Below, in pieces: positions 3,838 through 31,483 of a DNA stretch of 33,771 nucleotides. The stretch is from Gemmatimonadales bacterium. Lineage in GTDB: Bacteria > Gemmatimonadota > Gemmatimonadetes > Longimicrobiales > Gaopeijiaceae. Position 1 is the stretch's first letter. Every line of letters begins with the position of its first letter. Made by a program: the position numbers and the translations under genes. The notes under the pieces were generated by a model, which saw only the letters and a program-made list of their open reading frames with translations, did not search any database and was not told the DNA's origin. The stretch spans positions 1 to 33,771 of the forward strand of contig REBP01000102.1 in assembly GCA_007692665.1 (NCBI GenBank), read 5' to 3'.

Positions 3838-4601
3838 CCGCTCCTCCCGGGGCGCAGCAGGGACCGGAACCAGTCCATGGTGGCGGTGACCTTGTAGCGC
3901 TGGATGGCACCGGCCGGATCGACGTCTTTCGGGCACACCACCGAGCATTCACCCACGAAGGTGCAGTCCCACACCCCGTGTTTCCGTGAGAGCACGTCCA
4001 TCCGTTCGTCTGCGCCATGGTCCCTGGAGTCCAGGTTGTATCGCTGCGCGAGAGCGATGGCGGCGGGACCGATGAAGTCCGGCTCCATTTCGTAGATGGG
4101 GCAGGCGGCGTAACAGAGCATGCAGTTGATGCACATGCTGTACTGTCGGAATGCCCCCACCTCCTCGGGGGTCTGCAGGGTCTCCCCGGCATCCAGGGGC
4201 TCCTCCTCCTTCCGGATGATCCATGGTTTCACCCGCGGCAGCTTTGCCATGAAGTCCCCCAGGTCTCCCACCAGGTCCCGGATCACCGGGAAACCGCGAA
4301 GGGGATCGATGCGGATGGGGCCCGGAAGAAGGTCCTCGATGTAGGTGGCGCAGGTAAGCACGGGCTCCCCGTTCACCGTCATGCCGCAGCTTCCGCAGAC
4401 CCCCATCCGGCAGGACCACCGGTAGGAGAGACTGCCGTCCATCTCGTCCTTCACATGATTCAGGGCGTCCAGGACCATCCAGTCCTCCTGGTAGGGGACC
4501 TCGAACGTCTCGTACTCAGGCTCGGGCGCCGTCTCCGGGCGGTACCGGAAGACCTTCAGCGTGACGGTGTCCACGGCGTTCTCCATCGGATCATCCGCCA
4601 T
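3834..4601 (-). CDS. frdB: Fumarate reductase iron-sulfur subunit FrdB
   Basis: Transfers electrons from the membrane quinol site to FrdA through three iron-sulfur clusters. All ligands are visible: the [2Fe-2S] set in [12 protein letters not shown] plus the later LTC, the [4Fe-4S] set in [12 protein letters not shown], and the [3Fe-4S] and remaining Cys in [17 protein letters not shown]. The Lys in QRYKVTA matches the quinone-site Lys of E. coli FrdB. Length (255) is normal. The ATG at 4601 overlaps the frdA end by 11 bases; a second ATG at 4586 (MENAVD) lies just past the frdA stop with GGCGGA upstream and could be the true start. The next gene, frdC, follows by ATGA. Confidence 0.95.
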
Positions 4602-6335
4602 AGTGGCGCTCGGCAGGCGGCCAGCGGGTGATGGTCACCGGCTCGAACTCCACCCGGCACGAGCCGTCCTCCTCCCGGTAGCAGAGGCTGTGGGCGAGAA
4701 AGTCCGCGTCGTTTCGTCCCGAGTGATCCGTCCTCTGATGCGAGCCCCGGGACTCGGTGCGCTCCAGCGCGGAGCAGAGGATCGTCTCGCCCACGTCCAG
4801 CAGGTTCTCGAGTTCGAGACCGTGGGCCAGCTCGGTGTTGAAGGTCAGGCTCCGGTCGTCGAGGGCGACGTCGGCGAACCGCCGGCGCAGCTCCTCGACC
4901 TCGGAGATTCCGGCCCGGAGCCCCGCCTCGTCCCGGAAGATCCCGGCCCGGCTCTCCATGGTCGCAAGGAGGTCCTCCCGCACGGACGCGAGGCGCTCGC
5001 CCCCTTCCGTGGACCGGCCCAGCACCCCCCCGTGGAGGCGCTCCTCCTCCTCCAGGGCCTGGGCCAGCACCGAACGGGGCGGATCGCCGGAGCCCCTGGC
5101 GAACTCCGCCGCGGCACGTCCAGCCCGGGCTCCGAACACCAGCAGCGCGGTGAGGGAGTTGGAGCCAAGTCGATTGGCTCCGTTGATGTTGATGCAGGCG
5201 GTCTCGCCTGCGGCGTAGAGGCCTGCGAGGGAAGTTGCGCCGTCCATGTCGACATCGATGCCCCCGATCATGTAGTGGACCACCGGTCGGACCGGGATGA
5301 GCTCTTCCACCGGATCGATCTTCTCGTACTTCCGGCAGAGCTCCCGGACGAAGGGAAGCTTCTCGTCGATGACCTTCTCGCCGAGATGGCGCAGGTCCAG
5401 GTGCACCACCTCTCCGTAGGGGCCCTCGATGGTCCTCCCCTTTTCCCGTTCTCCCTCGAAGGCCTGGGAGAGCCGGTCCCGGGGGCCGAGTTCCATGGAG
5501 CGCTTCACGGCTCGTCGCTGGGCTCCCCCAGGTCGTAGTCCTGGAGGTAGCGATATCCGTCCTCGTTCACGAGCCAGCCCCCTTCCGCACGCGCCGCCTC
5601 GGTGATGAGGATCCCGGTGAAGGGAAGCCCGGTGGGGTGGTACTGGACGAACTCCATGTCCTTGAGGGGGACCCCGGCGCGGTAGGCCAGCCCCATCCCG
5701 TCGCCCGTCTTGATGCTGCCGTTCGTCGTGAAGGGGAAGACGGTGCCGGCGCCCCCGGTGCAGAGGATCACCGACCGGGCCAGGACAGCATGGACCTTTC
5801 CGGTCGCCATCTCGATGGCTACCACCCCGTGGCAGCGGCCATCCTCCACCAGGAGCCGGGTGGCGAACCACTCGTCGTGCCGCTGGATGGGAGGGTAGGA
5901 GAGGGTGGTCTGGAACAGGGTGTGGAGGAGGTGGAAACCGGTCTTGTCGGCGGCGAACCAGGTCCGGTCGTGCTTCATCCCGCCGAAGGAGCGGGTGGCG
6001 ATGGTGCCGTCGGGGTTCCGGCTCCAGGGGCACCCCCACCGCTCCATGCGGAGCAGCTCCCGGGGGGCCTCCTCCACGAAGAATTCCACGGCATCCTGGT
6101 CACAGAGCCAGTCCCCGCCGCTGATGGTGTCGTGGGCGTGGTCGTCCAGGCTGTCGTCCTCGCCGATGACGGCCGCCGCCCCTCCCTCCGCCGACACCGT
6201 GTGGCTCCGCATCGGATAGACCTTCGAGAGCACCCCGATGCGGAGTCCGGGGCTGTGTTCTGCCACCGCAATGGCCGCGCGCAGCCCCGCGCCTCCTCCC
6301 CCCACCAGAAGCACATCGTGGCTTACCACATCCAT
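4591..6335 (-). CDS. frdA: Fumarate reductase flavoprotein subunit FrdA, interrupted by an apparent one-base frameshift near 5508
   Basis: FAD-containing catalytic subunit reducing fumarate to succinate. The N-terminal frame (6335 to 5505) has the dinucleotide fold [18 protein letters not shown], the FAD-linking His in [13 protein letters not shown] and [11 protein letters not shown], then stops after [11 protein letters not shown]. The other frame (from about 5508) continues exactly where the family would, with [30 protein letters not shown] and [10 protein letters not shown]. One extra G would turn CCGTGAAG into Pro-Val-Lys and restore a protein of about 581 residues. The stop and a GTG in the new frame overlap (GTGA), so reinitiation is formally possible. 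A sequencing or assembly error is more likely because all catalytic residues are intact. Start at 6335 has GGAG seven bases upstream; a GTG lies one codon earlier. Confidence 0.93.
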
Positions 6336-6667
6336 CACGCATCTCCGCGCTCGATTCACCCGGGTGAAGGTCCGAAATGCGGGTCCTCCGGGATCCGGCC
6401 CCGGCCCGGGCCCCGGCGCATCCCGCTGGTACCGGTCAACGTGCAGGGAATATGCCACCATACGGATGCGGCGCACCGGTTCTTCGCCGGCTCCGTTTCG
6501 ACCTTTCGGAGGGCAAGGGACGGATCTGCAGACGCCACCTCGGCGTGCACGGCCGCCGAACCGGGCACGCCACCTTTTCTGGGCGCTACGCGTTTGGATC
6601 TGCCACCCCGCACGGGTACCTTCACAGGATGCAGGAAGGGCCTGCCACCGTCTCTCTGGAGGACTGG
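6336..6667. other. Divergent intergenic region between frdA and the response regulator gene
   Basis: About 330 bases that must contain the promoters of the frd operon (leftward) and the regulator gene (rightward). No hexamer pair stands out in either direction. The plus-strand reading frame upstream of the regulator start is open but Arg/Pro-rich and lacks protein-like composition. A divergent placement makes the regulator a candidate controller of frd, though nothing in the sequence proves it. Confidence 0.5.
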
Positions 6668-7323
6668 ATGATCCAGATCGCGATCATCGAGGACAACCGC
6701 CTCGTCCGTGATGGACTCACCCTCAAGCTCAATGAGCAGGAGGGCTTCGAGGTCATCCATTCTGCAGCGATGGGCTGCATCGACGCCCTCGGGAAGACCG
6801 CGCCCCGGGTGCTTCTCCTGGATGCGGGGCTGGAGGGTGAGGACAGCCGGGAGCTGGCGGAGCGGGTGCGGGATGCCCTCCCGAATACCCGGGTCATCGT
6901 CATGGACCTGCTCCCGGTCCACGAGGAACTGGTGGAGTTCGTCACTGCCGGGGTGGCCGGCTTCGTCCTCAAGGACGCCACCCTCGAGGAGTCCTCGCCA
7001 CCATCCGGTCGGTGGCCGAGGGACGCACCGTCCTCCCCCCCGAAATGGCCTCGACCCTGTTCTCCCAGATCGTGGGAGAGGCGATTCTCCGGGGCCCGGG
7101 TGCCGTGGGGCACGCGACGGAACTGACACCCCGGGAACGCAAGGTGGTGGGCCTGATCGGCGACGGCATGAGCAACAAGGCCATCGCGAAGACTCTCGCC
7201 ATCTCCCCCCACACGGTGAAGAGCCACGTCCGAAACGTGATGGACAAGCTGGCACTCCACAGCCGCCTCCAGATCGCCGCATATCTCCACAAGGGCATCG
7301 ACGAAGAGGCCGGGCAGGAGTAG
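6668..7323 (+). CDS. NarL/FixJ-family response regulator, with an apparent one-base frameshift near 6990
   Basis: Two-component DNA-binding regulator. The receiver domain is clear: acidic pocket [14 protein letters not shown], phospho-acceptor Asp in VLLLDAGL, and the conserved Lys in [11 protein letters not shown]. The frame is then lost, and the next frame carries [19 protein letters not shown] followed by a LuxR-type helix-turn-helix ([37 protein letters not shown]). Restoring one T in GAGTCCTCGCC (to GAGTTCCTCGCC) gives Glu-Phe-Leu-Ala and a protein of about 218 residues, the family norm. The start at 6668 has an excellent GGAGG five bases upstream. The sensor partner is not adjacent; the only kinase in the window is at 26259. 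Confidence 0.9.
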
Positions 7324-7505: not shown

Positions 7506-7823
7506 ATGAAGGACGGTACGGCCGAAGCTGAAACCTCGGCGCCATCCGCCGGGAGACCTCTCTGGGTCTACGGCTACCAGATGAATCCACCGCAGCCGGA
7601 GGCCCGGATGACCGCAATCCGCGACCTCCTGGACAAGCAGAACGATGCCGTGGCCCTCAAGGGTCGGAAGTGGACTGCCTGTCTGGTCACGGAAGAGAGG
7701 GTCACCCATGTACTGGTCGTGACCTCCAGCCCCGAAGAGAACCTCGACCTGAACCGACGGCTCGAGTCCGAACTGAAGGGCATGGGCATCAGGTTCGAAC
7801 TCTCGGTCCCGATGCCGGTCTGA
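7506..7823 (+). CDS. Small protein of unknown function (105 residues)
   Basis: Not recognised. Codon use matches that of neighbouring genes, and GGGAG lies six bases before the ATG at 7506; an upstream in-frame ATG at 7473 is less well placed. After a short Ala/Thr/Glu-rich start come PLWVYGYQMNPPQPEARMTA and a mixed alpha/beta pattern (TACLVTEERVTHVLVVTSSP, LNRRLESELKGMGIRFELSV). There is no signal peptide, membrane segment or Cys motif, so it is probably cytoplasmic. The alternating strand-helix pattern would suit a small ligand-binding or regulatory fold, but this is a guess. It sits between the response regulator and the ice-binding gene and shares their direction. Confidence 0.7.
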   Translation: MKDGTAEAETSAPSAGRPLWVYGYQMNPPQPEARMTAIRDLLDKQNDAVALKGRKWTACLVTEERVTHVLVVTSSPEENLDLNRRLESELKGMGIRFELSVPMPV

Positions 7824-7960: not shown

Positions 7961-7988
7961 GGACGGGCCGTGGTACCACGGCCCGTCC
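7961..7988. promoter_or_regulatory. 28-bp perfect palindrome in the leader of the ice-binding protein gene
   Basis: Each half is 14 bases (left half GGACGGGCCGTGGT) with no mismatch and no spacer. As RNA it would form a 12-bp stem with a GUAC loop; as DNA it is a two-fold-symmetric site of a size suited to a dimeric regulator. It lies 53 bases before the GTG at 8042. It is followed by CCCC, not T's, so it is not a canonical intrinsic terminator. Confidence 0.75.
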
Positions 7989-8041
7989 CCCTGGCCGTTT
8001 CGAGAACCATGAAAGACACCCAACGACTCAGGAGAGTCCAC

Positions 8042-9868
8042 GTGAAGATCCCATCGATGACACGCACGCCAGGCGCGCTGCGTCCCCCTTTCCCGGCCAT
8101 CCGGTGGATCGTCGCGGCGGCGCTCATGACCGTCACAGCCGTCGCCTGTGACGTCCATTCGCCCGTTGGCCCCGGGGAAATCGCCAGCATGACCCTCACC
8201 CCCGCTCAGACCACGATGGGCATCAGCAGCACCCAGCAGCTCGTGGCGCGGGCCTTCGACGCCGAAGGGAAGGAAATCAGCATCAGTGGCTCCGGTGCGA
8301 ACTCGTCCGCCCAGTGGGACATGGTGAACGGGGGAGGGACCGTCGACGGGGCGGGCATGTTCCGGGCGGGCACTGCCATCGGGACCTTCACGAACACCGT
8401 CAGGGTCAGCATGGGGGGCAAGGAAGCCTTCGCCTCCTTCACCGTCGTTGCAGGTCCGGCCGCTGCCATCGTGGTCACGCCAAACCCCGATTCGGTGGGC
8501 GTCGGCATGACGCGGCAGTTCGTCGCCACTGCGGTTGATGCAGGGGGCAACCCCGTTCCCGTCACACCCACCTGGACCGTGGTGAGCGGAGGCGGAACCA
8601 TCAATTCCAGCTCGGGAATGTTCACGGCCGGAACGACGGCCGGGACGTTCAGCAACACCGTCCGGGCTTCCAGCGGCAGCCTCTCGGGCTTTGCGACGGT
8701 CACGGTGAGGCCCGGCCCGTCCGTCTCCCTGGCCGTTTCTCCGAATCCTCACGCCATGCCCGCGAACGGGGTTCAGCAGTTCACGGCCATGGCCATGGAT
8801 GCTTCGGGGAACACCAGCCCGGTTACCGCCACCTGGACCGTGGTGAACGGCGGCGGCGCGATCAACAGCGCCTCCGGAGTGTTCACGGCCGGGACGGCAG
8901 CCGGAACCTTCACCGGCACGGTGCGGGCCGCGAGCGGGAGCCTCTCCGGCACGGCGACCGTAACGGTCATCGGCGCTCCGGCCGTCACCATCACGGTGAC
9001 CCCGAACCCGGTCACGCTGGGCACCAGGGGGACGCAGCAGTTCAACGCCACGGCCGTTGATGCACTCGGCAACGCTGTTGCCATCAGTCCCGTCTGGTCG
9101 GTCGTCCATGGGGGCGGAAGTATCAACGCCTCGAGCGGCATGTTCACCGCCGGAGACTCGACCGGGACCTTCGTCAACACCGTCCGTGCCACGAGTGGCA
9201 GCCTGTCCGGCACCGCGACCGTGAACGTGACGACGTCCTCGTCCCCGCCGCCGCCGCCGCCGCCGGGGATCTTCGGATCCGCCGCGCCGAACGGCATCAT
9301 GGCAGGCACCCAGGTCACCTGCATCACCAATGGCCTCATCAGCGCCGACGTGAGCATCTCCCCCGGATCCACCATCACCGGGTACCCGCCGTGCGTGATC
9401 ACCGGGACGCGCAACCTCGCAAATGCGCTCGCTGCGCAGATGCAGATGGACCTGACCAAGGCCTACAACACCCTGGCCGGGCTCCCCTGCCCGCCGGCGA
9501 ACGCCATCGTGGCTGACCTGGGCGGCACCACGAAGCCCGCCGGTGTCTACTGCAGCGCCACGGGGATCGGCGTGACGGGCACGCTGACCCTGGACGGAGG
9601 CGGAAATCCCAACGCGGAATTCGTCTTCCAGGCCGGGAGCTCGCTCACGACCGCCGGAAACATCGTGCTGATCAACGAGGCGCAGGCCAAGAACGTCTAC
9701 TGGCAGGTGGGAAGCTCCGCCACCATCGGCACGGCTTCCAAGTGGCAGGGCAACATCGTCGCCCTGACCAGCATCACGCTGGTGGACACCGCAACGCTGA
9801 TCGGCCGGGCCCTGGCCCGGAACGGAGCCGTCTCGCTCGGCACCAGCAACACCATCACCCTCCCGTAA
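8042..9868 (+). CDS. Lipoprotein with four Big-like repeats and a C-terminal ice-binding (DUF3494) domain
   Basis: The 608-residue product starts with a signal peptide ending in TVTAVAC (lipidated Cys 36). Four bacterial-Ig-like repeats of about 87 residues follow (about 47-141, 142-228, 229-315 and 316-400), each with a TPNP-type start, a QF.A.A.DA.GN segment and a W.VV.GGG...SG.F.AG...G pattern. A Pro-rich hinge (SPPPPPPPG) leads to residues 409-608, which look like DUF3494: IFGSAAPNGIMAGTQVTC, GLISADVSISPGS, AGVYCSATGIGVTGTLTLDG, FVFQAGSSLTTAGN, VYWQVGSSATIGTASKWQGN. Some family members bind ice; others are of unknown or adhesive function. The GTG start has AGGAG seven bases upstream; ATGs at 8009 and 8057 lack such a site. 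The layout suggests a stalk presenting the domain at the surface. Confidence 0.88.
   Translation: MKIPSMTRTPGALRPPFPAIRWIVAAALMTVTAVACDVHSPVGPGEIASMTLTPAQTTMGISSTQQLVARAFDAEGKEISISGSGANSSAQWDMVNGGGTVDGAGMFRAGTAIGTFTNTVRVSMGGKEAFASFTVVAGPAAAIVVTPNPDSVGVGMTRQFVATAVDAGGNPVPVTPTWTVVSGGGTINSSSGMFTAGTTAGTFSNTVRASSGSLSGFATVTVRPGPSVSLAVSPNPHAMPANGVQQFTAMAMDASGNTSPVTATWTVVNGGGAINSASGVFTAGTAAGTFTGTVRAASGSLSGTATVTVIGAPAVTITVTPNPVTLGTRGTQQFNATAVDALGNAVAISPVWSVVHGGGSINASSGMFTAGDSTGTFVNTVRATSGSLSGTATVNVTTSSSPPPPPPPGIFGSAAPNGIMAGTQVTCITNGLISADVSISPGSTITGYPPCVITGTRNLANALAAQMQMDLTKAYNTLAGLPCPPANAIVADLGGTTKPAGVYCSATGIGVTGTLTLDGGGNPNAEFVFQAGSSLTTAGNIVLINEAQAKNVYWQVGSSATIGTASKWQGNIVALTSITLVDTATLIGRALARNGAVSLGTSNTITLP
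8467..9234 (+). repeat. Three tandem ~260-bp coding repeats (Big-like units 2-4)
   Basis: The last three Ig-like units are similar at DNA level, with near-identical stretches around the W.VV.GGG and F.AGT.AGTF segments. Such blocks are prone to unit gain or loss, so copy number may vary between strains or be compressed in an assembly. The first unit (about 8180-8460) is more diverged. Confidence 0.75.
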
Positions 9869-9874
9869 TTCGCA

Positions 9875-9909
9875 GCGCGGGAGCCGTGCGGACCGGGCGG
9901 CTCCCGCGC
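9875..9909 (+). terminator. Strong hairpin after the ice-binding protein gene
   Basis: A 12-bp perfect stem (GCGCGGGAGCCG with CGGCTCCCGCGC) around an 11-base loop begins six bases past the stop. There is no T-tract, so it could be a 3'-protective structure or a partial terminator between this gene and the OmpA-family gene. Confidence 0.5.
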
Positions 9910-10012
9910 GCTGATTCGATTACAGCGCCGCGGCCCCGGACCGAGTCTCACCGGGCGCCACGGCAGGCGGGCGAAGCTGCCCGCCACCAGGAACTTCAAT
10001 TGGAGAATGGAA

Positions 10013-11026
10013 ATGCTCGCTAGAATCACCACGCTGGGGGCGGCCCTTCTGCTGGTGGCCACTCCGGCCGCCTCGCAGGACCGGGGGACCGTCGAGTTCG
10101 GAGGGTTTGCCACCGGCACCTCCTTCGACAGCAGTCTCAACATGAACGGCAGTTTCGGAGCCGGCGGCCGGGTCGGGATCTTTCTCGCCCCGTGGCTCTC
10201 GCTCGAGTTCGATGGCCAGGGCAGTACCGCGACCCGCACCCTGGGCCTTCGCGACGTGAACGTCGGCATGGTTCACGCACGCGTCACCGCGATCCCCTTC
10301 ACGGTGGGGCCGGCCTCGCTCCTCGTGGGCGTCGGGGTCAACGACTTCGACACGAACTTCCACCTGAGCTACGGCGTGCACGGGCTCATCGGCGCGAAGT
10401 TCGCGCTGACGGACGCGGTCTCCCTCCGGGTGGACGGCATCCAGGACCGCATGTCCATGGGCGGAGGAGCCAACCGCACCCTGCAGGTCGGGCTGAGCTA
10501 CTACCGCCATGCGCCCTCGACCACCGTGACCCAGGTCGTGACCCGGGACGTCCCGGCACCTGCCGCGCAGCAGCGGCCTGACTCGGTGAGCGCGGCCGAA
10601 ACCGCACGGCTCCGGGCCATCGAGGCCGAGCACAACCGGATGCTTGCCGCGAATGCACGCTCCGATGCGGATGCCCTCACGATGGCGGAAGTGATCCACT
10701 TCGCGCACGACTCGTCCGAGCTGAGCAGCGCGGCGCGGACCATCCTGGACAGCAAGGTCAGGATCTTCCGGAGCGATCCGGAGATGCGCATCGTGATCAC
10801 CGGGTACGCAAGCCAGCCCGGCACCGCGGAATACAACATGGCGCTGGGACTTCGCCGCGCCGAAGCCACCCGGGCGTACCTGGTCTCGCAGGGCGTTGCA
10901 GGCTCGCGCGTCCAGATCGCCACGCGCGGTCAGAACGAACTCGTGATCGACGGCCCAGGTGAGCGTGCCGACGCGGCGAATCGCCGCGGCGAGTTCCGCC
11001 TCCTGGTGGCCGACCCCGGCCAGTAA
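10013..11026 (+). CDS. OmpA-family outer membrane protein (beta-barrel-like N-terminus plus OmpA C-terminal domain)
   Basis: The 337-residue product has a signal peptide (LLLVATPAASQ) and an N-terminal region of alternating amphipathic strands to about residue 165 (VEFGGFATGTSFD, GGRVGIFLAPWLSLEFDG, LQVGLSYYRHA), typical of a small barrel. A linker with an Ala/Glu/Arg helix leads to an OmpA-like domain (VIHFAHDSSELSSAARTILD, YNMALGLRRAEATRAYL, GQNELV). The usual peptidoglycan-binding GHTD/GHCD motif reads GYAS, while the Arg of the RRAEA helix is kept, so wall binding may be altered. GGAG seven bases upstream supports the ATG at 10013 over that at 10007. It follows the ice-binding gene and may share its regulation. 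Confidence 0.88.
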   Translation: MLARITTLGAALLLVATPAASQDRGTVEFGGFATGTSFDSSLNMNGSFGAGGRVGIFLAPWLSLEFDGQGSTATRTLGLRDVNVGMVHARVTAIPFTVGPASLLVGVGVNDFDTNFHLSYGVHGLIGAKFALTDAVSLRVDGIQDRMSMGGGANRTLQVGLSYYRHAPSTTVTQVVTRDVPAPAAQQRPDSVSAAETARLRAIEAEHNRMLAANARSDADALTMAEVIHFAHDSSELSSAARTILDSKVRIFRSDPEMRIVITGYASQPGTAEYNMALGLRRAEATRAYLVSQGVAGSRVQIATRGQNELVIDGPGERADAANRRGEFRLLVADPGQ

Positions 11027-11066
11027 CGCAGCACGGGCAACGACGGGGCTACGTCCCGAAAGGCCG

Positions 11067-11102
11067 CCGGCGGCGCTCCCACCCGGGGCGCCGCCGGTTT
11101 TT
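11067..11102 (+). terminator. Rho-independent terminator after the OmpA-family gene
   Basis: A 10-bp perfect GC stem (CCGGCGGCGC with GCGCCGCCGG), an 11-base loop and a TTTTT run make the clearest intrinsic terminator in the window. It lies between convergent genes, about 40 bases after the OmpA-family stop. Confidence 0.88.
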
Positions 11103-13402: not shown

Positions 13403-14734
13403 CTACTCCCCGGGCACGGCGGGGTGCCCTTTCCCCGGGGGAAGGGTGTCGGTGGCGAACTGGTGGGCGCGGCGATAGCGGGCCATGCTGCGCTCCGCCA
13501 GGATCTTGATCCCGACGGCGGCCGGCACGGCGAGGAGCAGCCCGACGAAGCCGAAGAAGAAGCCGCCCACGGCAATGGCCAGGAGGATCCACACCGGGTG
13601 GAGCCCCGTGGAATCGCCCACGATGCGGGGGCTGATGACGGCGCTCTCGAGGGTCTGGGCGACGCCGTACACGAGGGCCACGCGGAAGAGGGCCGAGCCC
13701 ACGTCCCCGCTGGTGAGGGCGATGGCCAGCGCCGGAAGGAGGCTGAGGACCAGCCCCAGGTAGGGGACGACGTTGAAGACGGCGACGATGAGCCCGAGGA
13801 GGATGGCGTAGGGGAAGCCCACCAGGAGGAGCCCCGCTGCCGTCATGGTCCCGATGATGAGGGAGACCATGACCTGTCCGCGCAGGTAGCCGGCCAGCGC
13901 CCGGTCGTACTCCCGCCCGAAGGTCAGGAGGTGGGCATGGGTCACCGGGACCAGCGAGGCCGCGCGCGCCACGACCCGGTCCCAGTCGCGCATCAGGTAG
14001 AAGGCGACGACCGGGGTCAGCACCAGGTACCCGAGGATCGTGAGGAAGGCGCCCACCCCCCGGCCCACGCCCAGTGCACCGCTCAGGAGCCACTGGCCGA
14101 TCTGCTGCTGCCGGGTCTCCAGGAAGACCATGATGTCGTCGGCCTGGAGCGTCCGGATCCGGCCGGCCAGCTCCGCTCCCTCCACCCCGGGGATCCGGAG
14201 CCTCGCGAGCCGAACCTCGAGCCCCTGGAGGATCACCGCCAGGCGGTCCAGCGCCGCGGGGGCCCGCCGCGCGAGCCCGGCGATTTCGGCGGCGGCCCAC
14301 GGGACCCCCCAGATGGCCGCGGCGGCAACACCCCCTGCCACCGGAATGGCCAGGAGCGCCACCGACAGCGTCCGGGGGAGGCGGTCCGTGTCCCCGAACC
14401 GGGCACCGGTCCAGGCGAGGGGCCGCCCCCGGGCCATCCGGTTCACCAGCGGGTTCAGGATGTAGGCCAGCACCACCGCCACCACGAAGGGGGCCAGGAG
14501 CGCGCCCAGTTCGCTCAGGAGCCAGAGGAAGGTGAAGACCCCCGTGGTCACGACCAGCGGCAGGAACACCCTCGCACCCCGGAAAGGAAAGAGGACCGCC
14601 AGGAGGGCGGCCCAGACGAGCACGGGGTTCAGCAGCGGAAGGAGGAGCCAGAGCAGCGCGCCCAGGAGGAGGAGGGCCGCGCCGGCACCGGCGATCCGGG
14701 CCGGATCGGGGCCGGCGTCGGGGGTTTCGATCAA
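13403..14734 (-). CDS. AI-2E family transporter (PerM/TqsA-like)
   Basis: Integral membrane protein of the AI-2E (UPF0118) family, whose members export small molecules or act in sodium/proton exchange; the substrate cannot be told here. About eight hydrophobic segments flank a hydrophilic central region (about 150-215). Family-typical stretches are LAYILNPLVNRMARG, LTPVVAFYLMRDWDRV, GYLRGQVMVSLIIG, FNVVPYLGLVLSLLPALAIA and the C-terminal ILLAIAVGGFFFGFVGLLLAVPAAVGIKIL. The start is TTG at 14734, overlapping the Nudix stop (TTGA), with GGGAGG a few bases upstream, so the pair is coupled. The product is 443 residues, longer than average because of the N-terminal and C-terminal tails. Confidence 0.92.
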   Translation of the reverse strand: MIETPDAGPDPARIAGAGAALLLLGALLWLLLPLLNPVLVWAALLAVLFPFRGARVFLPLVVTTGVFTFLWLLSELGALLAPFVVAVVLAYILNPLVNRMARGRPLAWTGARFGDTDRLPRTLSVALLAIPVAGGVAAAAIWGVPWAAAEIAGLARRAPAALDRLAVILQGLEVRLARLRIPGVEGAELAGRIRTLQADDIMVFLETRQQQIGQWLLSGALGVGRGVGAFLTILGYLVLTPVVAFYLMRDWDRVVARAASLVPVTHAHLLTFGREYDRALAGYLRGQVMVSLIIGTMTAAGLLLVGFPYAILLGLIVAVFNVVPYLGLVLSLLPALAIALTSGDVGSALFRVALVYGVAQTLESAVISPRIVGDSTGLHPVWILLAIAVGGFFFGFVGLLLAVPAAVGIKILAERSMARYRRAHQFATDTLPPGKGHPAVPGE

Positions 14735-15165
14735 AGCGCCTCCCAGGGGAGGTGCTCGATGGCCCGGTGGATCATCTCCCGGGCGTTGTCGTAGGTGACA
14801 CGCCGTTCCGCCTCCCGAGCGGGGAGCCAGAGCACCTCGGAGATCCCCTCGGCCACCTGCGGGACCGCCTCACCCTGGCGCGACGCCATCAGGTAGAAGC
14901 GGCAGAACTTGTGGATGCGGGTCCGGCCGGACCGGAACACCCAGTCGATCTCGCCCAGCTCGGGGCCGAGCAGGAGGTCGGAGAGGCCGGTCTCCTCCCG
15001 GACCTCCCGGATCGCAGCGTCGGCCGGGGCCTCCTCCCCCTCCAGGTGGCCCTTGGGGAGCCCCCACTTCCGGTACGGGTCCCGGATCAGGAGAACATGC
15101 ACCTCCCCGTCGATGGTCCGGAGCACCACGCCTCCTGCGCTCCTTTCGACGGTGGTCATGGGCAT
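14731..15165 (-). CDS. Nudix hydrolase
   Basis: Hydrolyses nucleoside-diphosphate-linked compounds. The full Nudix box is present (G-x5-E-x7-REVREETGL, from GHLEGEEAPADAAIREVREE), preceded by AGGVVLR and KWGLPKG. With 144 residues and this N-terminus it resembles bacterial diadenosine-polyphosphate or mRNA-cap-type Nudix proteins, but substrate cannot be assigned. ATG at 15165 or 15159 may be the start; neither has a clear ribosome site. It is coupled to the AI-2E transporter gene downstream and follows mlaD by 60 bases. Confidence 0.92.
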   Translation of the reverse strand: MPMTTVERSAGGVVLRTIDGEVHVLLIRDPYRKWGLPKGHLEGEEAPADAAIREVREETGLSDLLLGPELGEIDWVFRSGRTRIHKFCRFYLMASRQGEAVPQVAEGISEVLWLPAREAERRVTYDNAREMIHRAIEHLPWEAL

Positions 15166-15225
15166 GTTGGCGGAAGGTCGAAGGTTCGGCAGGAGACGAC
15201 GTCGGCCGGACGAGGCGGACGGCGG

Positions 15226-16215
15226 TCAGAAGATCGACAGTCGAAGATAACGCCTCGGGTTCTCGCGGATATCCTGAAGCAGGACCTGGAGCTCGGCAAG
15301 CGTCCCCTCCATGCCCGCCGCCATGGTCGGGTCGCTCAGCAGCCGCCCGAGGGATCCCTCGCCCTCCGTGGCCTGAACGGCCACCCGGTCGAGGGCGGCA
15401 AAGGTGGAGTCGACCTGCATCGCCATGGCCTGCACCGTGGTGTTCGTGCCCTGGAGGTCCTCGCTCAGCTGTCGGAGATTCTCCGCCAGCGCGGCAAAGT
15501 CCGAGAGGGCCTCGCCGGTGGCGGCCTGCCCCATGACCGAGTTCAGCCGGGCGAGGACCACCTGGGCCTCGAGGGCCGCGTCGCCGATCCCCTGCGTGGC
15601 GCGACGAACGTCATCGGTGACGTCGGTGAAGGACACCGCCTGCTGGGTGACCAGCTCCGAGAGGCGCTCGGTGACCTCCTCCATGTTGTCGATCATGGAG
15701 GCGATGTTCATGGCCGTCTCCTCGGAGAAGGCGATCCCGATCCGGTCCGAAAGGGTGCCGATGTTGTCCGAGATCCGGTCCGCCGTGGCCGTGAGCTGAG
15801 CGATGTCGGGGAGCGCATACCCGGGCAGGTCGCCCGGTTCCCGGGCGTCGGCGAACTGGGCATGGGGGAAGCGGGCCCTCGAGTGGATCTCGGCCTGCCA
15901 GTCGCCGAAGAAGGACTCCGGCGAAAGCACGACCACCGCATCCGGCGGGATGCGGAGGTCCTCCTGGACCCGGAAGGTGACCCGCACCAGGCTCCCGTCC
16001 GGAAGGACCTCCACCCTCCGGACGCTCCCGACCCGGACGCCCCGGAACTTGACGGGATTTCCGGCCGTGATCTGGCCGACCTCGCTGAAGACAGCGTGCA
16101 CATCGGTGGTTTCGCCGGCGAAGCTGGTTCCCTCCAGCCACATCGTGCCCACCACGATGACCACCAGGGCGGCCACGATGACGACCCCGACCATGGCGTC
16201 GCGCTTCTCGTTCAT
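15226..16215 (-). CDS. mlaD: MlaD-family (MCE domain) substrate-binding protein
   Basis: Periplasmic, membrane-tethered MCE protein that passes phospholipid between the MlaFE transporter and other envelope parts. A single N-terminal helix (VGVVIVAALVVIVVGTMWL) is followed by one MCE domain (TTDVHAVFSEVGQITAGNPV, FRGVRVGSVRRVEV, VRVTFRVQEDLRIP). The long remainder (about 140-329) is predicted helical and rich in Ala/Gln/Thr/Asp, suggesting a coiled-coil needle or barrel as in longer MCE proteins. The ATG at 16215 overlaps the mlaF stop (ATGA). Confidence 0.92.
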   Translation of the reverse strand: MNEKRDAMVGVVIVAALVVIVVGTMWLEGTSFAGETTDVHAVFSEVGQITAGNPVKFRGVRVGSVRRVEVLPDGSLVRVTFRVQEDLRIPPDAVVVLSPESFFGDWQAEIHSRARFPHAQFADAREPGDLPGYALPDIAQLTATADRISDNIGTLSDRIGIAFSEETAMNIASMIDNMEEVTERLSELVTQQAVSFTDVTDDVRRATQGIGDAALEAQVVLARLNSVMGQAATGEALSDFAALAENLRQLSEDLQGTNTTVQAMAMQVDSTFAALDRVAVQATEGEGSLGRLLSDPTMAAGMEGTLAELQVLLQDIRENPRRYLRLSIF

Positions 16216-16961
16216 GACGAATTCTCCATCAGTTCGGGCCGGCCCTCGATGAACGCCCGGATCACCGGGTCCTCCGAGTTCCGGAAGTCGTCGGGGGTCC
16301 CTTCGAGTCGGCAGATCCCCTCGTACAGCATCGCCATCCGGTCGGCCACGCGGAAGGCGCTCTCCATGTCGTGGGTGATGACGATGCCCGTGACCCCGAG
16401 TTCGTCCTTCATCCGGTTGATGAGTCGATCGACGACGGCCCGGGTCACCGGGTCGAGACCGGTGGTGGGCTCGTCGTAGAGAAGATAGCTGGGGCGGGTG
16501 GCCACGGCCCGGGCGATGCCGGCCCGCTTTCGCTGCCCACCCGAGAGTTCGGAGGGGGAGCGGTCCTCGAATCCCACCAGGTCCACCACCCGGAGCGCCT
16601 CCCGAACCCGTTCCTCCCGTTCCTCGTCCGACACCTCCCGCATCCGGCGGAGTCCCATGGCCACGTTGTCCGCCACCGACATGGAATCGAAGAGGGCGGC
16701 GAACTGGAAGACGTACCCCACGTTCCGCCGAAGGGCGAAGAGCTCCTCCAGGGTCCGCCCGGCCACCCGCTCCCCGTCCACCCGGACCTCGCCCTGGTCC
16801 GGCTCCAGGAGCCCGACCACGTGCTTGATGGTCACGGACTTCCCCGACCCGGACTGGCCCAGGATGACCAGGGTCTCGCCGTCCCGGGCCTCCACGGAAA
16901 ACCCCCGGAGGACCTGGTTCGACTCGAAGGCCTTGTGAATCCCGTCGATCTCGATGCTCAT
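16212..16961 (-). CDS. mlaF: MlaF-family ABC transporter ATP-binding protein
   Basis: ATPase of the phospholipid transporter. It shows Walker A LGQSGSGKS, a Q-loop region YVFQFAALFDSMSV, the signature LSGGQRKR, Walker B YLLYDEPTTGLDP and the switch His in VITHDM. The 249-residue form starting at 16961 is preferred because GGAGGGG lies a few bases upstream; an in-frame codon at 16976 lacks this. It is separated from mlaE by 19 bases and overlaps mlaD by ATGA. Confidence 0.95.
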   Translation of the reverse strand: MSIEIDGIHKAFESNQVLRGFSVEARDGETLVILGQSGSGKSVTIKHVVGLLEPDQGEVRVDGERVAGRTLEELFALRRNVGYVFQFAALFDSMSVADNVAMGLRRMREVSDEEREERVREALRVVDLVGFEDRSPSELSGGQRKRAGIARAVATRPSYLLYDEPTTGLDPVTRAVVDRLINRMKDELGVTGIVITHDMESAFRVADRMAMLYEGICRLEGTPDDFRNSEDPVIRAFIEGRPELMENSS

Positions 16962-16980
16962 GATGCCCCTCCCCACCCGC

Positions 16981-17763
16981 TCACAGCAGCAGCACGGCCC
17001 AGAAGGCGTCGAGGACGAGGATCACCATGGAGCTCGCCACCACGGCCCCCGTCGTGGACCGTCCTACCCCTTCCGCCCCGCCCCGGGTGCCGAATCCGAA
17101 GTGACAGCCGATGGTCGTCACGACGAAGCCGAAACTCGTGGCCTTGATCATGGCGTACGCCACGTCGAAGGGAACGAAGAAGAGGGTGAGGCCCCGGATG
17201 AACTCGGGGGTGGACAGCTCCAGGAGCTGGATCGCCGTGAACCACCCCGCCACGATCCCCATGGCGATGGCCAGCGCCGTGACCAGGGGAAACATGATCG
17301 TGCCGGCAATGACCCTCGGTACCACCAGGTAGGCCACCGGCGGATACGCCATGGTTTCCAGCGCATCGATCTGCTCGGTGACCCGCATCGTGCCGATCTC
17401 GGCGGAGATGTTCGCCCCCACGCGGCCCGACAGGGCGAGCCCCGTGAGGACCGGCCCGAGTTCCAGCATCATCGTCTTTCCGACAAGGACGCCCACGAAG
17501 TACAGGGGGATGGCGCCGGTAAAGGTGTAGGAAGCCTGCAGGGCCAGCACGATCCCCGTGAACGCCGCGATGAAGAGCGCAATGGGCACGGAATCCACGC
17601 CGATGCGCGTCATCTGCCGGAGGGTGAGGGGCGCCCAGATCTCGACCCACCGCAGCGCCCGGGCGGCGTCGATGACGAGCCCGCCCCAGCGCCCGATGGC
17701 GAGCGTGAAGACGCGGACCCCCCTTCCGAGGGCCGTGAAGGGGGCGAGGAGCGTGCGTGTCAT
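16981..17763 (-). CDS. mlaE: MlaE-family ABC transporter permease
   Basis: Inner-membrane permease of the Mla/MCE transport system. It has the family segments LTLRQMTRIGVDSVPIALFI, FTGIVLALQASYTF, ELGPVLTGLALSGRVGANIS, AEIGTMRVTEQIDALETMAY and VVTTIGCHFGFGTRGGAEGV, with five to six hydrophobic helices. The start at 17763 (260 residues) is fixed by ATGA overlap with the upstream unknown gene; the frame is open further up but reads Arg-rich noise. Confidence 0.95.
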   Translation of the reverse strand: MTRTLLAPFTALGRGVRVFTLAIGRWGGLVIDAARALRWVEIWAPLTLRQMTRIGVDSVPIALFIAAFTGIVLALQASYTFTGAIPLYFVGVLVGKTMMLELGPVLTGLALSGRVGANISAEIGTMRVTEQIDALETMAYPPVAYLVVPRVIAGTIMFPLVTALAIAMGIVAGWFTAIQLLELSTPEFIRGLTLFFVPFDVAYAMIKATSFGFVVTTIGCHFGFGTRGGAEGVGRSTTGAVVASSMVILVLDAFWAVLLL

Positions 17764-29887: not shown

Positions 29888-31483
29888 GTGCCTCTCCAGA
29901 ACCGCCATCCATGTCGTCCGTCCCGGCGTCCGTTCCGCCTCCTCGCCACGCTGCTGGCAGGCGCGCTCGTCTCCGGCTGCGGGGGGGATGGATCGGGTGG
30001 TCCCACCGATCCGGATCCGACCGATGGCACCCCTGCGGCTCTCGCCGCCGTCGGGAGCGCCGCCTTCGGCGGTACCGTCGGGACCGAGCTGAGCACGCCA
30101 CTTCGGGCCCGCGTGACCAACGCCGCGGGCCAGGGGGTGGCGGGCGTCACTGTCACCTGGGAGGTGACCACCGGGGGCGGCAGCATCGAACCGGTGGACG
30201 GCGGAGCCACCGCCGGCTCGGGAGAGGCGCACGCCCGATGGACTCTCGGAACCGGGGCGGGCCAGCAGGAGGCCCGGGCCCGGGTCACCGGGCTTCCGGG
30301 GCTGGCCTTCACCGCCGACGCACGGGCCGGTTCCCCCGCGCTCCTGGAACTGGAGCCCGCGTCGGGGGCGCGAATCGCCGTGTTCGGAGGCGCCTTCGCC
30401 GAGCCGCTTCAGCTTCGCCTGGAGGACCTGTACGGGAACCCCGTCCAGGGGTTCGCGGTGGATGTGGAGGTCACGGCCGGCGGGGGGTGGACCACCGACG
30501 TCCCGCTCACCGATGCACAGGGTACGGCGAGCTTCCACTGGTACACCGGCCCCGGTCCCGCACCGGAGGAGCAGCGCCTCCGGGTCCGAGCCGGCACGGG
30601 GGACCTCCTCGCGGCGAACGCCGTGGGGCTCTCCGAAGCTCCCGCACCGGGGGCGATGCTGGAGGGGCATCGAGGGTTCGTCGAATACACGGCGGGGACG
30701 CTCCCCTTCATCATCACGGCGGGTCACGGCGGGACGCTCCTTCCGGGGGACATCCCGGACCGTTCACCCCCGGCCACGCTGGTCCGCGACCTCGACACCG
30801 ACATCCTGGCCCTCCTCGTTGCCGACTCGCTGGAGGCCCTCACCGGGGAGCGTCCCCACCTGATCCGGGTGCACCTGCACCGCAGGAAGATGGATGCGAA
30901 CCGTGACCTGGCCGAGGCCGCCCAGGGCAACCCCGAGGCAACCCGGACGTGGAAGGAGTTCCACTCCTGGACCGAGACCGCCATGGCCGGCGTGCGGGCC
31001 TCGCATCCCAGGGGGCTGTACGTGGACGTCCATGGCCACGGGCACGACGTGCAGCGCCTGGAACTCGGCTACCTGCTCACGGGAGCCCAGCTTGCCGTCG
31101 ACGACCACGTGCTCGACGGCTCGGGTGCAGCGGGGAGCATGAGCCTGAGGGAGATCGCGGCGTGGACGGGGCGAACGCCGTCGCGGATCGTCCGCGGAGA
31201 GGGCTCCCTCGGAGACCTGTTCCACCGCCGGGGCTACCCGGCCGTCCCCTCCCCGCAGGACCTCCACCCCGCAGGTGCCCCGTTCTTCTCCGGCGGGTAC
31301 AACACCCGGCGCTACGGGTGCGGCGACGGCGGGACGATCTGTGGCTTCCAGCTCGAGGCCAACCGCATCGGGGTCAGGGACTCGGAAGCCGCCCTGGGCA
31401 GGTTCGCCGGAGCCACGGCCAGGGTCCTGCTGGAGTACTGGGCCGACGTCACGGCGTCCGGCGCGGGCCGCGACACGCCCTGA
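29888..31483 (+). CDS. Ig-domain lipoprotein with an N-formylglutamate amidohydrolase-like domain
   Basis: The 531-residue product begins with an Arg-containing lipoprotein signal ending in ALVSGC (Cys 31). Two invasin/Big-1-like beta domains follow (VTVTWEVTTGGGSIEP, GGATAGSGEAHARWTLGTG; then DLYGNPVQGFAVDVEVTAGG). The C-terminal domain (about 258-525) resembles N-formylglutamate amidohydrolases: FIITAGHGGTLLPGDIPDRS, VHLHRRKMDANRDL, LYVDVHGHGHDVQRLELGYL, FQLEANRIGVRDSEAAL. His and Asp residues of HGG, DANR and DVHGH are the likely metal and catalytic set. Attachment to Ig domains and a lipid anchor is unusual for this usually cytoplasmic enzyme class. GTG at 29888 is the best start; its ribosome site is weak. 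Confidence 0.78.
   Translation: MPLQNRHPCRPSRRPFRLLATLLAGALVSGCGGDGSGGPTDPDPTDGTPAALAAVGSAAFGGTVGTELSTPLRARVTNAAGQGVAGVTVTWEVTTGGGSIEPVDGGATAGSGEAHARWTLGTGAGQQEARARVTGLPGLAFTADARAGSPALLELEPASGARIAVFGGAFAEPLQLRLEDLYGNPVQGFAVDVEVTAGGGWTTDVPLTDAQGTASFHWYTGPGPAPEEQRLRVRAGTGDLLAANAVGLSEAPAPGAMLEGHRGFVEYTAGTLPFIITAGHGGTLLPGDIPDRSPPATLVRDLDTDILALLVADSLEALTGERPHLIRVHLHRRKMDANRDLAEAAQGNPEATRTWKEFHSWTETAMAGVRASHPRGLYVDVHGHGHDVQRLELGYLLTGAQLAVDDHVLDGSGAAGSMSLREIAAWTGRTPSRIVRGEGSLGDLFHRRGYPAVPSPQDLHPAGAPFFSGGYNTRRYGCGDGGTICGFQLEANRIGVRDSEAALGRFAGATARVLLEYWADVTASGAGRDTP

Follow-up and report, generated by a model that had tools for sequence, protein, structure and literature searches.

The window, by which we mean the whole stretch of DNA analysed, is one complete contig of 33,771 nucleotides from a 4.2 Mb Gemmatimonadota genome assembly (258 contigs, approximately 95% complete). 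All features given here with coordinates lie on its forward strand, apart from one palindrome to which no strand is assigned. Two neighbouring genes were studied. One encodes a stalked lipoprotein with a DUF3494 (ice-binding-like) domain (8042..9868; ORF of 608 aa with a GTG start, which is kept in the nearest relatives G078 and G080), the other an OmpA-family protein, here called partner or anchor (10007..11026; 339 aa with signal peptide, identified as ORF and by Pfam). The lipoprotein starts with a signal peptide and a lipobox leading to the predicted lipid-bearing Cys36 (8042..8149; codon 8147-8149). This lipobox reads TAVAC, where the Ala at -3 is allowed by the pattern used, and is followed by DVH; the motif C-D-V-H is common to many members. 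Repeat comparison delimited a stalk of four tandem repeats (8174-8452, 8453-8713, 8714-8974 and 8975-9235) of 87-93 aa each, with 44-64% identity to the second repeat, and among relatives the copy number ranges from one to eight. A Ser-Pro hinge, SSSPPPPPPP with its (Pro)7, is read directly from the sequence (9236..9265) and has a Pro-rich counterpart at the equivalent position in most relatives. The protein ends with the DUF3494 head (9296..9847), which is matched by PF11999 at residues 419-602 (E=4e-44; 151.2 bits, cut-off 28.7). This is its sole domain, and profile search yielded no RTX or other giant-adhesin machinery. The lipid anchor, the four repeats, the Pro hinge and the terminal DUF3494 domain had already been given in an initial annotation made from the sequence, with correct coordinates.

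The designation of the repeats as Ig-like, also taken from that annotation, stands in part. It is backed by similarity to LigA of Leptospira (E=3e-7; profile E=0.003) and by sub-threshold Big_1/Big_2 matches in the stalks of relatives, whereas the stalk of this genome gave no Pfam match. Therefore, "Ig-like" is the least well supported label of the lipoprotein architecture.

For the head, structure modelling gave a beta-solenoid with a long helix (62-79) at a pLDDT of 95.6, so that the beta-solenoid expected from the first reading of the DNA is present in the model. The model superimposes on EfcIBP (6eio) with a TM of 0.91 and an rmsd of 1.4 at 42% identity, and on AnpIBP with a TM of 0.90. 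The ice-binding face was assessed by alignment, not by geometry: GSSAT on the predicted B-face (9710..9724) is identical in AnpIBP, where Ser558 and Thr561 align with S153 and T156. This fungal protein requires both residues to bind ice, and its B-face mutants S153Y and T156Y reduced thermal hysteresis down to 17% (PMC7277481). Homology, fold and these two conserved ice-binding-site residues suggest ice as the ligand of the head. The head furthermore contains four cysteines which are invariant across the aligned heads of its type (type A, see below) and absent from the 6eio sequence; two disulphides are likely. Among named homologues, those most similar to the head come from Gemmatimonadota MAGs.

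The partner carries a predicted N-terminal outer-membrane beta-barrel (10040..10501). Its PF13505 score of 27.9 lies just under the cut-off of 28.7, and 10 of 11 orthologues match at E<=0.001; the model, based on three sequences only, shows eight strands at low confidence (pLDDT 44.5). The C-terminal part is an OmpA/Pal peptidoglycan-binding-type domain (10700..10984; PF00691 at residues 232-326, E=3e-17, 63.1 bits, cut-off 27.2), assigned also by comparison with Pal and OmpA structures. Within it, the altered GYAS motif pointed out by the initial annotation is found at residues 266-269 (10802..10813). Here Ser269 replaces the usual diaminopimelate-binding Asp of the G-x-x-D motif in Pal and OmpA, and R284, 15 residues on, is retained. 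The Asp corresponds to D271 in OmpA of A. baumannii, for which the roles of the Asp and the Arg have been described (PMC6572160). Because a Ser takes the place of the diaminopimelate-binding Asp here, the partner may have a weak hold on peptidoglycan. GYAS or GFAS occurs only here and in G078, G080, G074 and G158, whereas the Asp is retained by the majority of partners (GYTD, GHTD, GNTD). The loss of the Asp is thus local, and GYAS was discarded as a defining feature of the module.

Transcription signals and the NarL-type regulator

Lipoprotein and partner genes are separated by 138 bp. The gap contains a hairpin (9875..9909) but no T run, and co-transcription of both genes is therefore plausible. 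An intrinsic terminator with a 14-pair stem and a T run follows the partner gene (11066..11098), one of two found by a scan in which 1.5 were expected. A leader and a terminator belonging to the module itself had been proposed; the terminator was recovered, the leader only partly, as the promoter scan gave nothing above chance and no sigma-70-like promoter for the module. An Rfam search yielded no match. Upstream of the lipoprotein gene lies a perfect 28-bp palindrome (7961..7988). It is unique in the genome and not found upstream in G078 and G080, and was discarded as a conserved operator. Likewise, a hairpin at the Shine-Dalgarno sequence was rejected as an RNA thermometer, being absent elsewhere and folding no better than shuffled sequences (z +0.84). 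This hairpin reads GACTC-AGGA-GAGTC here and GATTC-AGGA-GAATC in G078 and G080, which amounts to a single paired substitution within a single lineage.

Further upstream, a NarL/LuxR-type response regulator was identified by profile match (6668..7323). Its reading frame is broken by 1 nt in this genome and intact in G078 and G080. A nearby gene for a succinate dehydrogenase flavoprotein-like protein also appears split between frames, so that an assembly or sequencing error is possible for the regulator as well. Between the regulator and the module lies a small ORF with uncertain start (7506..7823), which is kept beside the regulator in several relatives. The regulator accompanies 14 module loci, in 12 of them within 2 kb. 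Apart from these, the regulator of G061 is found upstream at a distance of 4.3 kb, separated from the module by an MCE operon, and the contigs of G162 and G381 end upstream of the module. Mostly it is placed upstream on the same strand, in family f3 it is convergent after the partner gene and in G074 it lies downstream. With at least 46% identity the subfamily is set apart from ordinary NarL regulators (at most 37%). It occurs in one to four copies per genome, also beside genes for an MCE transporter, an AI-2E-type permease and YiaD-like proteins. As the subfamily adjoins other envelope genes and is present in genomes lacking DUF3494, we rejected it as a pair-specific component, and "envelope regulator" is the better name. 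It probably controls the module in many members.

Co-occurrence of the lipoprotein and partner genes

The lipoprotein and its partner form a conserved two-gene module. PF11999 was detected in five of 121 genomes of the same family, and exactly these five contain the full-length partner, defined by at least 45% identity over the whole length; all other hits were C-terminal OmpA domains only. The two genes are adjacent in four of the five genomes, and in the fifth (G080) both are situated at contig ends with matching orientation. Within the class, 35 of 394 genomes have PF11999 above the cut-off. Of 25 evaluable loci with a stalked DUF3494 protein, 19 have an OmpA-family ORF as the next gene downstream, versus two of 15 unstalked ones (Fisher p=2e-4 for the class-wide sample, relatedness ignored). 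The reciprocal count gave a similar picture: at 18 loci with a strong anchor match (at least 230 bits), DUF3494 is adjacent at 14, a contig end cuts three, and one has none. In total, the conserved pairing that the initial annotation had named as a check was seen in about 20 other genomes. Among 75 other loci from a scan of a genome collection, outside the Gemmatimonadota and mostly Gram-positive, no DUF3494-OmpA pairing was found. The anchors of paired loci have diverged to 23-45% identity. The persistence of the pair despite this divergence and despite the exchange of heads described below speaks for a functional link.

Six stalked loci are without a partner. In the partner-less Gemmatimonadota MAGs L086 and L087, both labelled palsa, inspection revealed, after the lipoprotein gene, an ORF similar to transposases of insertion sequences. 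The single strong anchor locus without DUF3494 (G268) has a related regulator next to the anchor.

Three types of heads were distinguished by phylogenetic analysis. The anchor tree groups G074, this genome, G078 and G080 (support 0.95-1.0); the head tree contradicts it and distributes the heads of G074, this genome and G078/G080 over three types. Type A comprises the heads of this genome, of G061 and of most of family f7, type B those of G078, G080, G217 and G237 (support 1.0), and type C those of G074 and G317 (support 1.0). Compared to G078, this genome has 75% identity in the anchor and 30% in the head; compared to G061 the values are 41% and 73%, respectively. Stalk and signal region are near-alike in this genome and G078. 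Type C and the majority of type A heads possess the equivalents of S153 and T156, which are replaced in type B, so that the closest relatives G078 and G080 combine a diverged head lacking the ice-binding-site residues with nearly the same stalk and anchor. A constant stalk and tether with a swapped tip is the pattern that one expects of an adhesin or a receptor.

Possible functions and comparison with known systems

We propose, at a probability of about one half, that the two genes form a surface-adhesion device, namely an ice-binding adhesin-like protein of the outer membrane which is tethered by an OmpA-family protein. According to this model, the lipoprotein would undergo export, acquire its lipid at Cys36 and end up on the outer membrane, where the four Ig-like repeats and the Pro hinge would extend the beta-solenoid head outward from the cell. 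The barrel of the partner would reside in the outer membrane and bind the lipoprotein, and its periplasmic OmpA domain would tie the complex to peptidoglycan, in analogy to the role of TpgA for the adhesin AtaA and of TraB for TraA. As a head of this type should bind ice, the cell would attach itself to ice or freezing pore water, the putative ligand being ice or ice-like ordered water. From the surface module of the initial annotation, the lipid anchor, the stalk and the status as a module hold; an ice function is suggested by homology, fold and residues, and the type B heads and an Asp next to the lipidated Cys (see below) complicate this reading. Further points against the model are the missing diaminopimelate-binding Asp of this partner, the six stalked loci without a partner and the prevailing view that the majority of DUF3494 proteins modify ice in soluble form. 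More tentatively, and with the odds against it, we suggest a so far undescribed surface-display system of Gemmatimonadota, in which a constant chassis of C-D-V-H anchor, Ig stalk, OmpA-family tether and NarL regulator carries interchangeable heads of the DUF3494 superfamily; the head type found here would make it an ice adhesin, the second one known in bacteria after MpIBP.

Several other explanations have to be weighed against the ice adhesin. That the two genes are neighbours through coincidence or plain inheritance and have no functional relation is hardly credible: OmpA-family genes are plentiful, with approximately 24 first-look candidates in this genome, but the co-occurrence within the family, the class-wide and reciprocal counts and the fact that the pair outlasts exchanges of the head argue against it. 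A serious competitor, which we nevertheless consider doubtful, is an adhesin for a non-ice ligand, in which the DUF3494 scaffold would bind minerals, polysaccharide or other cells and different heads would recognise different ligands. Three head types on one chassis and the residue-less type B would fit to this, as would the fact that Gemmatimonadota are mostly soil bacteria. However, the head of this genome keeps the equivalents of S153 and T156 and resembles biochemically proven ice-binding proteins, and several records of the homologue scan are labelled palsa, Chersky or NGEE_A, which we take to be permafrost or cold-soil sites. The natural swaps offer a built-in comparison between an ice-competent head and the residue-less heads of G078 and G080 on a near-same stalk and anchor, and could reveal the role of DUF3494 in bacteria not known to live in ice.

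Rather unlikely in our view is a cell-bound cryoprotectant, whose head would limit ice recrystallisation close to the envelope while stalk and partner keep it cell-associated. Cryoprotection is the role usually proposed for DUF3494 proteins; the lack of RTX or giant-adhesin machinery and a stalk of just four repeats would also agree. On the other hand, stalks of relatives reach eight repeats, and the dedicated envelope partner and the exchanged heads are adhesin-like. The weakest link of the surface model is the Asp in position +2 relative to the lipidated Cys. It is conserved in the lipoproteins of the module, rare in other lipoproteins of module loci (one of 29), and known as an inner-membrane retention signal in E. 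coli, which casts doubt on sorting to the outer membrane. Consequently, the protein could be an inner-membrane or periplasmic lipoprotein never exposed at the surface, with partner and regulator belonging to an envelope-stress regulon, and the genes for the MCE transporter, the AI-2E-type permease and YiaD-like proteins beside the regulator subfamily would fit to such a regulon. We regard this as improbable, since a secreted-type ice-binding domain on an Ig stalk that varies in copy number has no obvious periplasmic use and the E. coli sorting rules are, to our knowledge, not known to apply in Gemmatimonadota. Alternatively, C-D-V-H might serve as an export signal peculiar to this lineage.

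Neither the DUF3494 family and its fold nor the existence of Ig-linked members is new. The type 1 proteins EfcIBP (6eio), AnpIBP (7bwx), SfIBP_1 (6bg8) and FfIBP belong to the same family above the cut-off and share the beta-solenoid and the Ser/Thr of the B-face, and SfIBP_1 from Shewanella, titled Ig domain protein, already combines Ig repeats with DUF3494. What differs from the known proteins is the lipid-anchored four-Cys head, the Ig stalk, the OmpA-family gene downstream and the exchangeable heads. Within the open-access literature searched we found no published DUF3494-OmpA pair and no article containing both DUF3494 and OmpA. In this literature, neither the pair nor the exchange of heads nor a lipoprotein with a four-Cys head appears to have been described. 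The parts seen of an Arctic MAG survey of DUF3494 gene neighbours name no OmpA gene (PMC9957290).

A comparable arrangement is present in MpIBP, the RTX ice adhesin of Marinomonas primoryensis, whose ice-binding domain is likewise displayed by tandem Ig-like extender repeats. As of 2016, no other adhesin was known to bind ice, and MpIBP is so far the one proven example of bacterial ice adhesion (PMC5014055). In contrast to this 1.5 MDa protein with another ice-binding domain and a C-terminal RTX part, we deal here with a 61-kDa-class lipoprotein ending in DUF3494 and having an OmpA-family neighbour. A module of this size with just two genes would be much simpler to produce and assay than MpIBP.

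Regarding the partner, two known systems come into consideration. In Acinetobacter, the peptidoglycan-associated OmpA-domain protein TpgA strengthens the anchoring of the adhesin AtaA (PMC13082670); AtaA and TpgA thus likewise are an adhesin and an OmpA-domain partner, but AtaA is a trimeric autotransporter. TraA and TraB of Myxococcus constitute a two-gene unit of a surface receptor and an OmpA-domain partner (PMC3325183). TraA is highly polymorphic (PMC6372800) and, unlike the DUF3494 lipoprotein, possesses a PA14 lectin-like head and a MYXO-CTERM sorting tag. Both systems are the nearest functional analogues, as the OmpA-domain protein fastens the surface protein encoded with it to the cell wall. 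The partner of this genome scored 34.4 bits with the TpgA model (NCBIfam NF047726; equivalog cut-off 350) and 43.2 bits with the TraB model (NF033763; cut-off 700). As both values are far below the cut-offs, the resemblance to TpgA and TraB is a likeness, not a membership.

Leader, heads and layouts of the module

At 8023-8041 in the window, a putative hairpin with a 5-bp stem (GACTC-AGGA-GAGTC) would place the Shine-Dalgarno sequence of the stalked DUF3494 lipoprotein gene in its loop. The hairpin is also seen at loci L065 and L067, and in G078 and G080, the genomes of the closest relatives, it differs by a single compensatory pair change, a candidate observation on scant data. A TTCACATGCATCAGGTCAGGAGGAGTTCGATG-like leader precedes the lipoprotein start codon at loci L205, L172, L170, L171, L080 and L163. 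This leader is similar across several families and may represent a regulatory element common to them.

The type-B DUF3494 heads at L065, L067, L072 and L166 are borne on the same stalk and anchor and have lost the ice-binding-site residues; each contains five cysteines. At L236 (G268:C45:43000-53500), the OmpA-family anchor is found together with a related response regulator and without a DUF3494 gene. Here, the tether may serve a different partner. A second layout is possibly represented by L176 (G134:C3), where the DUF3494 gene is unstalked and a 580-aa OmpA-domain protein is encoded upstream, not downstream.

Reading frames upstream of the module

A 1-nt frame break splits the NarL/LuxR-type response regulator gene at 6668-7323, and the same gene is unbroken in G078 and G080. 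The split could be an assembly error or a true pseudogene. Since a succinate dehydrogenase/fumarate reductase flavoprotein-like gene (4591-6476) also looks split, apparently lying in two frames with a break near 5500, sequence errors in that stretch are hinted at. A small protein of about 85-105 aa is encoded at 7506-7823, with counterparts at L065, L067, L064, L072 and L168. It has no Pfam match and is conserved in several relatives, adjoining the regulator or the module.

Further envelope genes

A further putative lipoprotein with Big_1 Ig-like domains is encoded at 29888-31483. The envelope genes at 13403-17763, comprising an AI-2E-type permease, a NUDIX protein and an MCE set (MlaD/ABC/MlaE), are of the same kind as those near other copies of the regulator.
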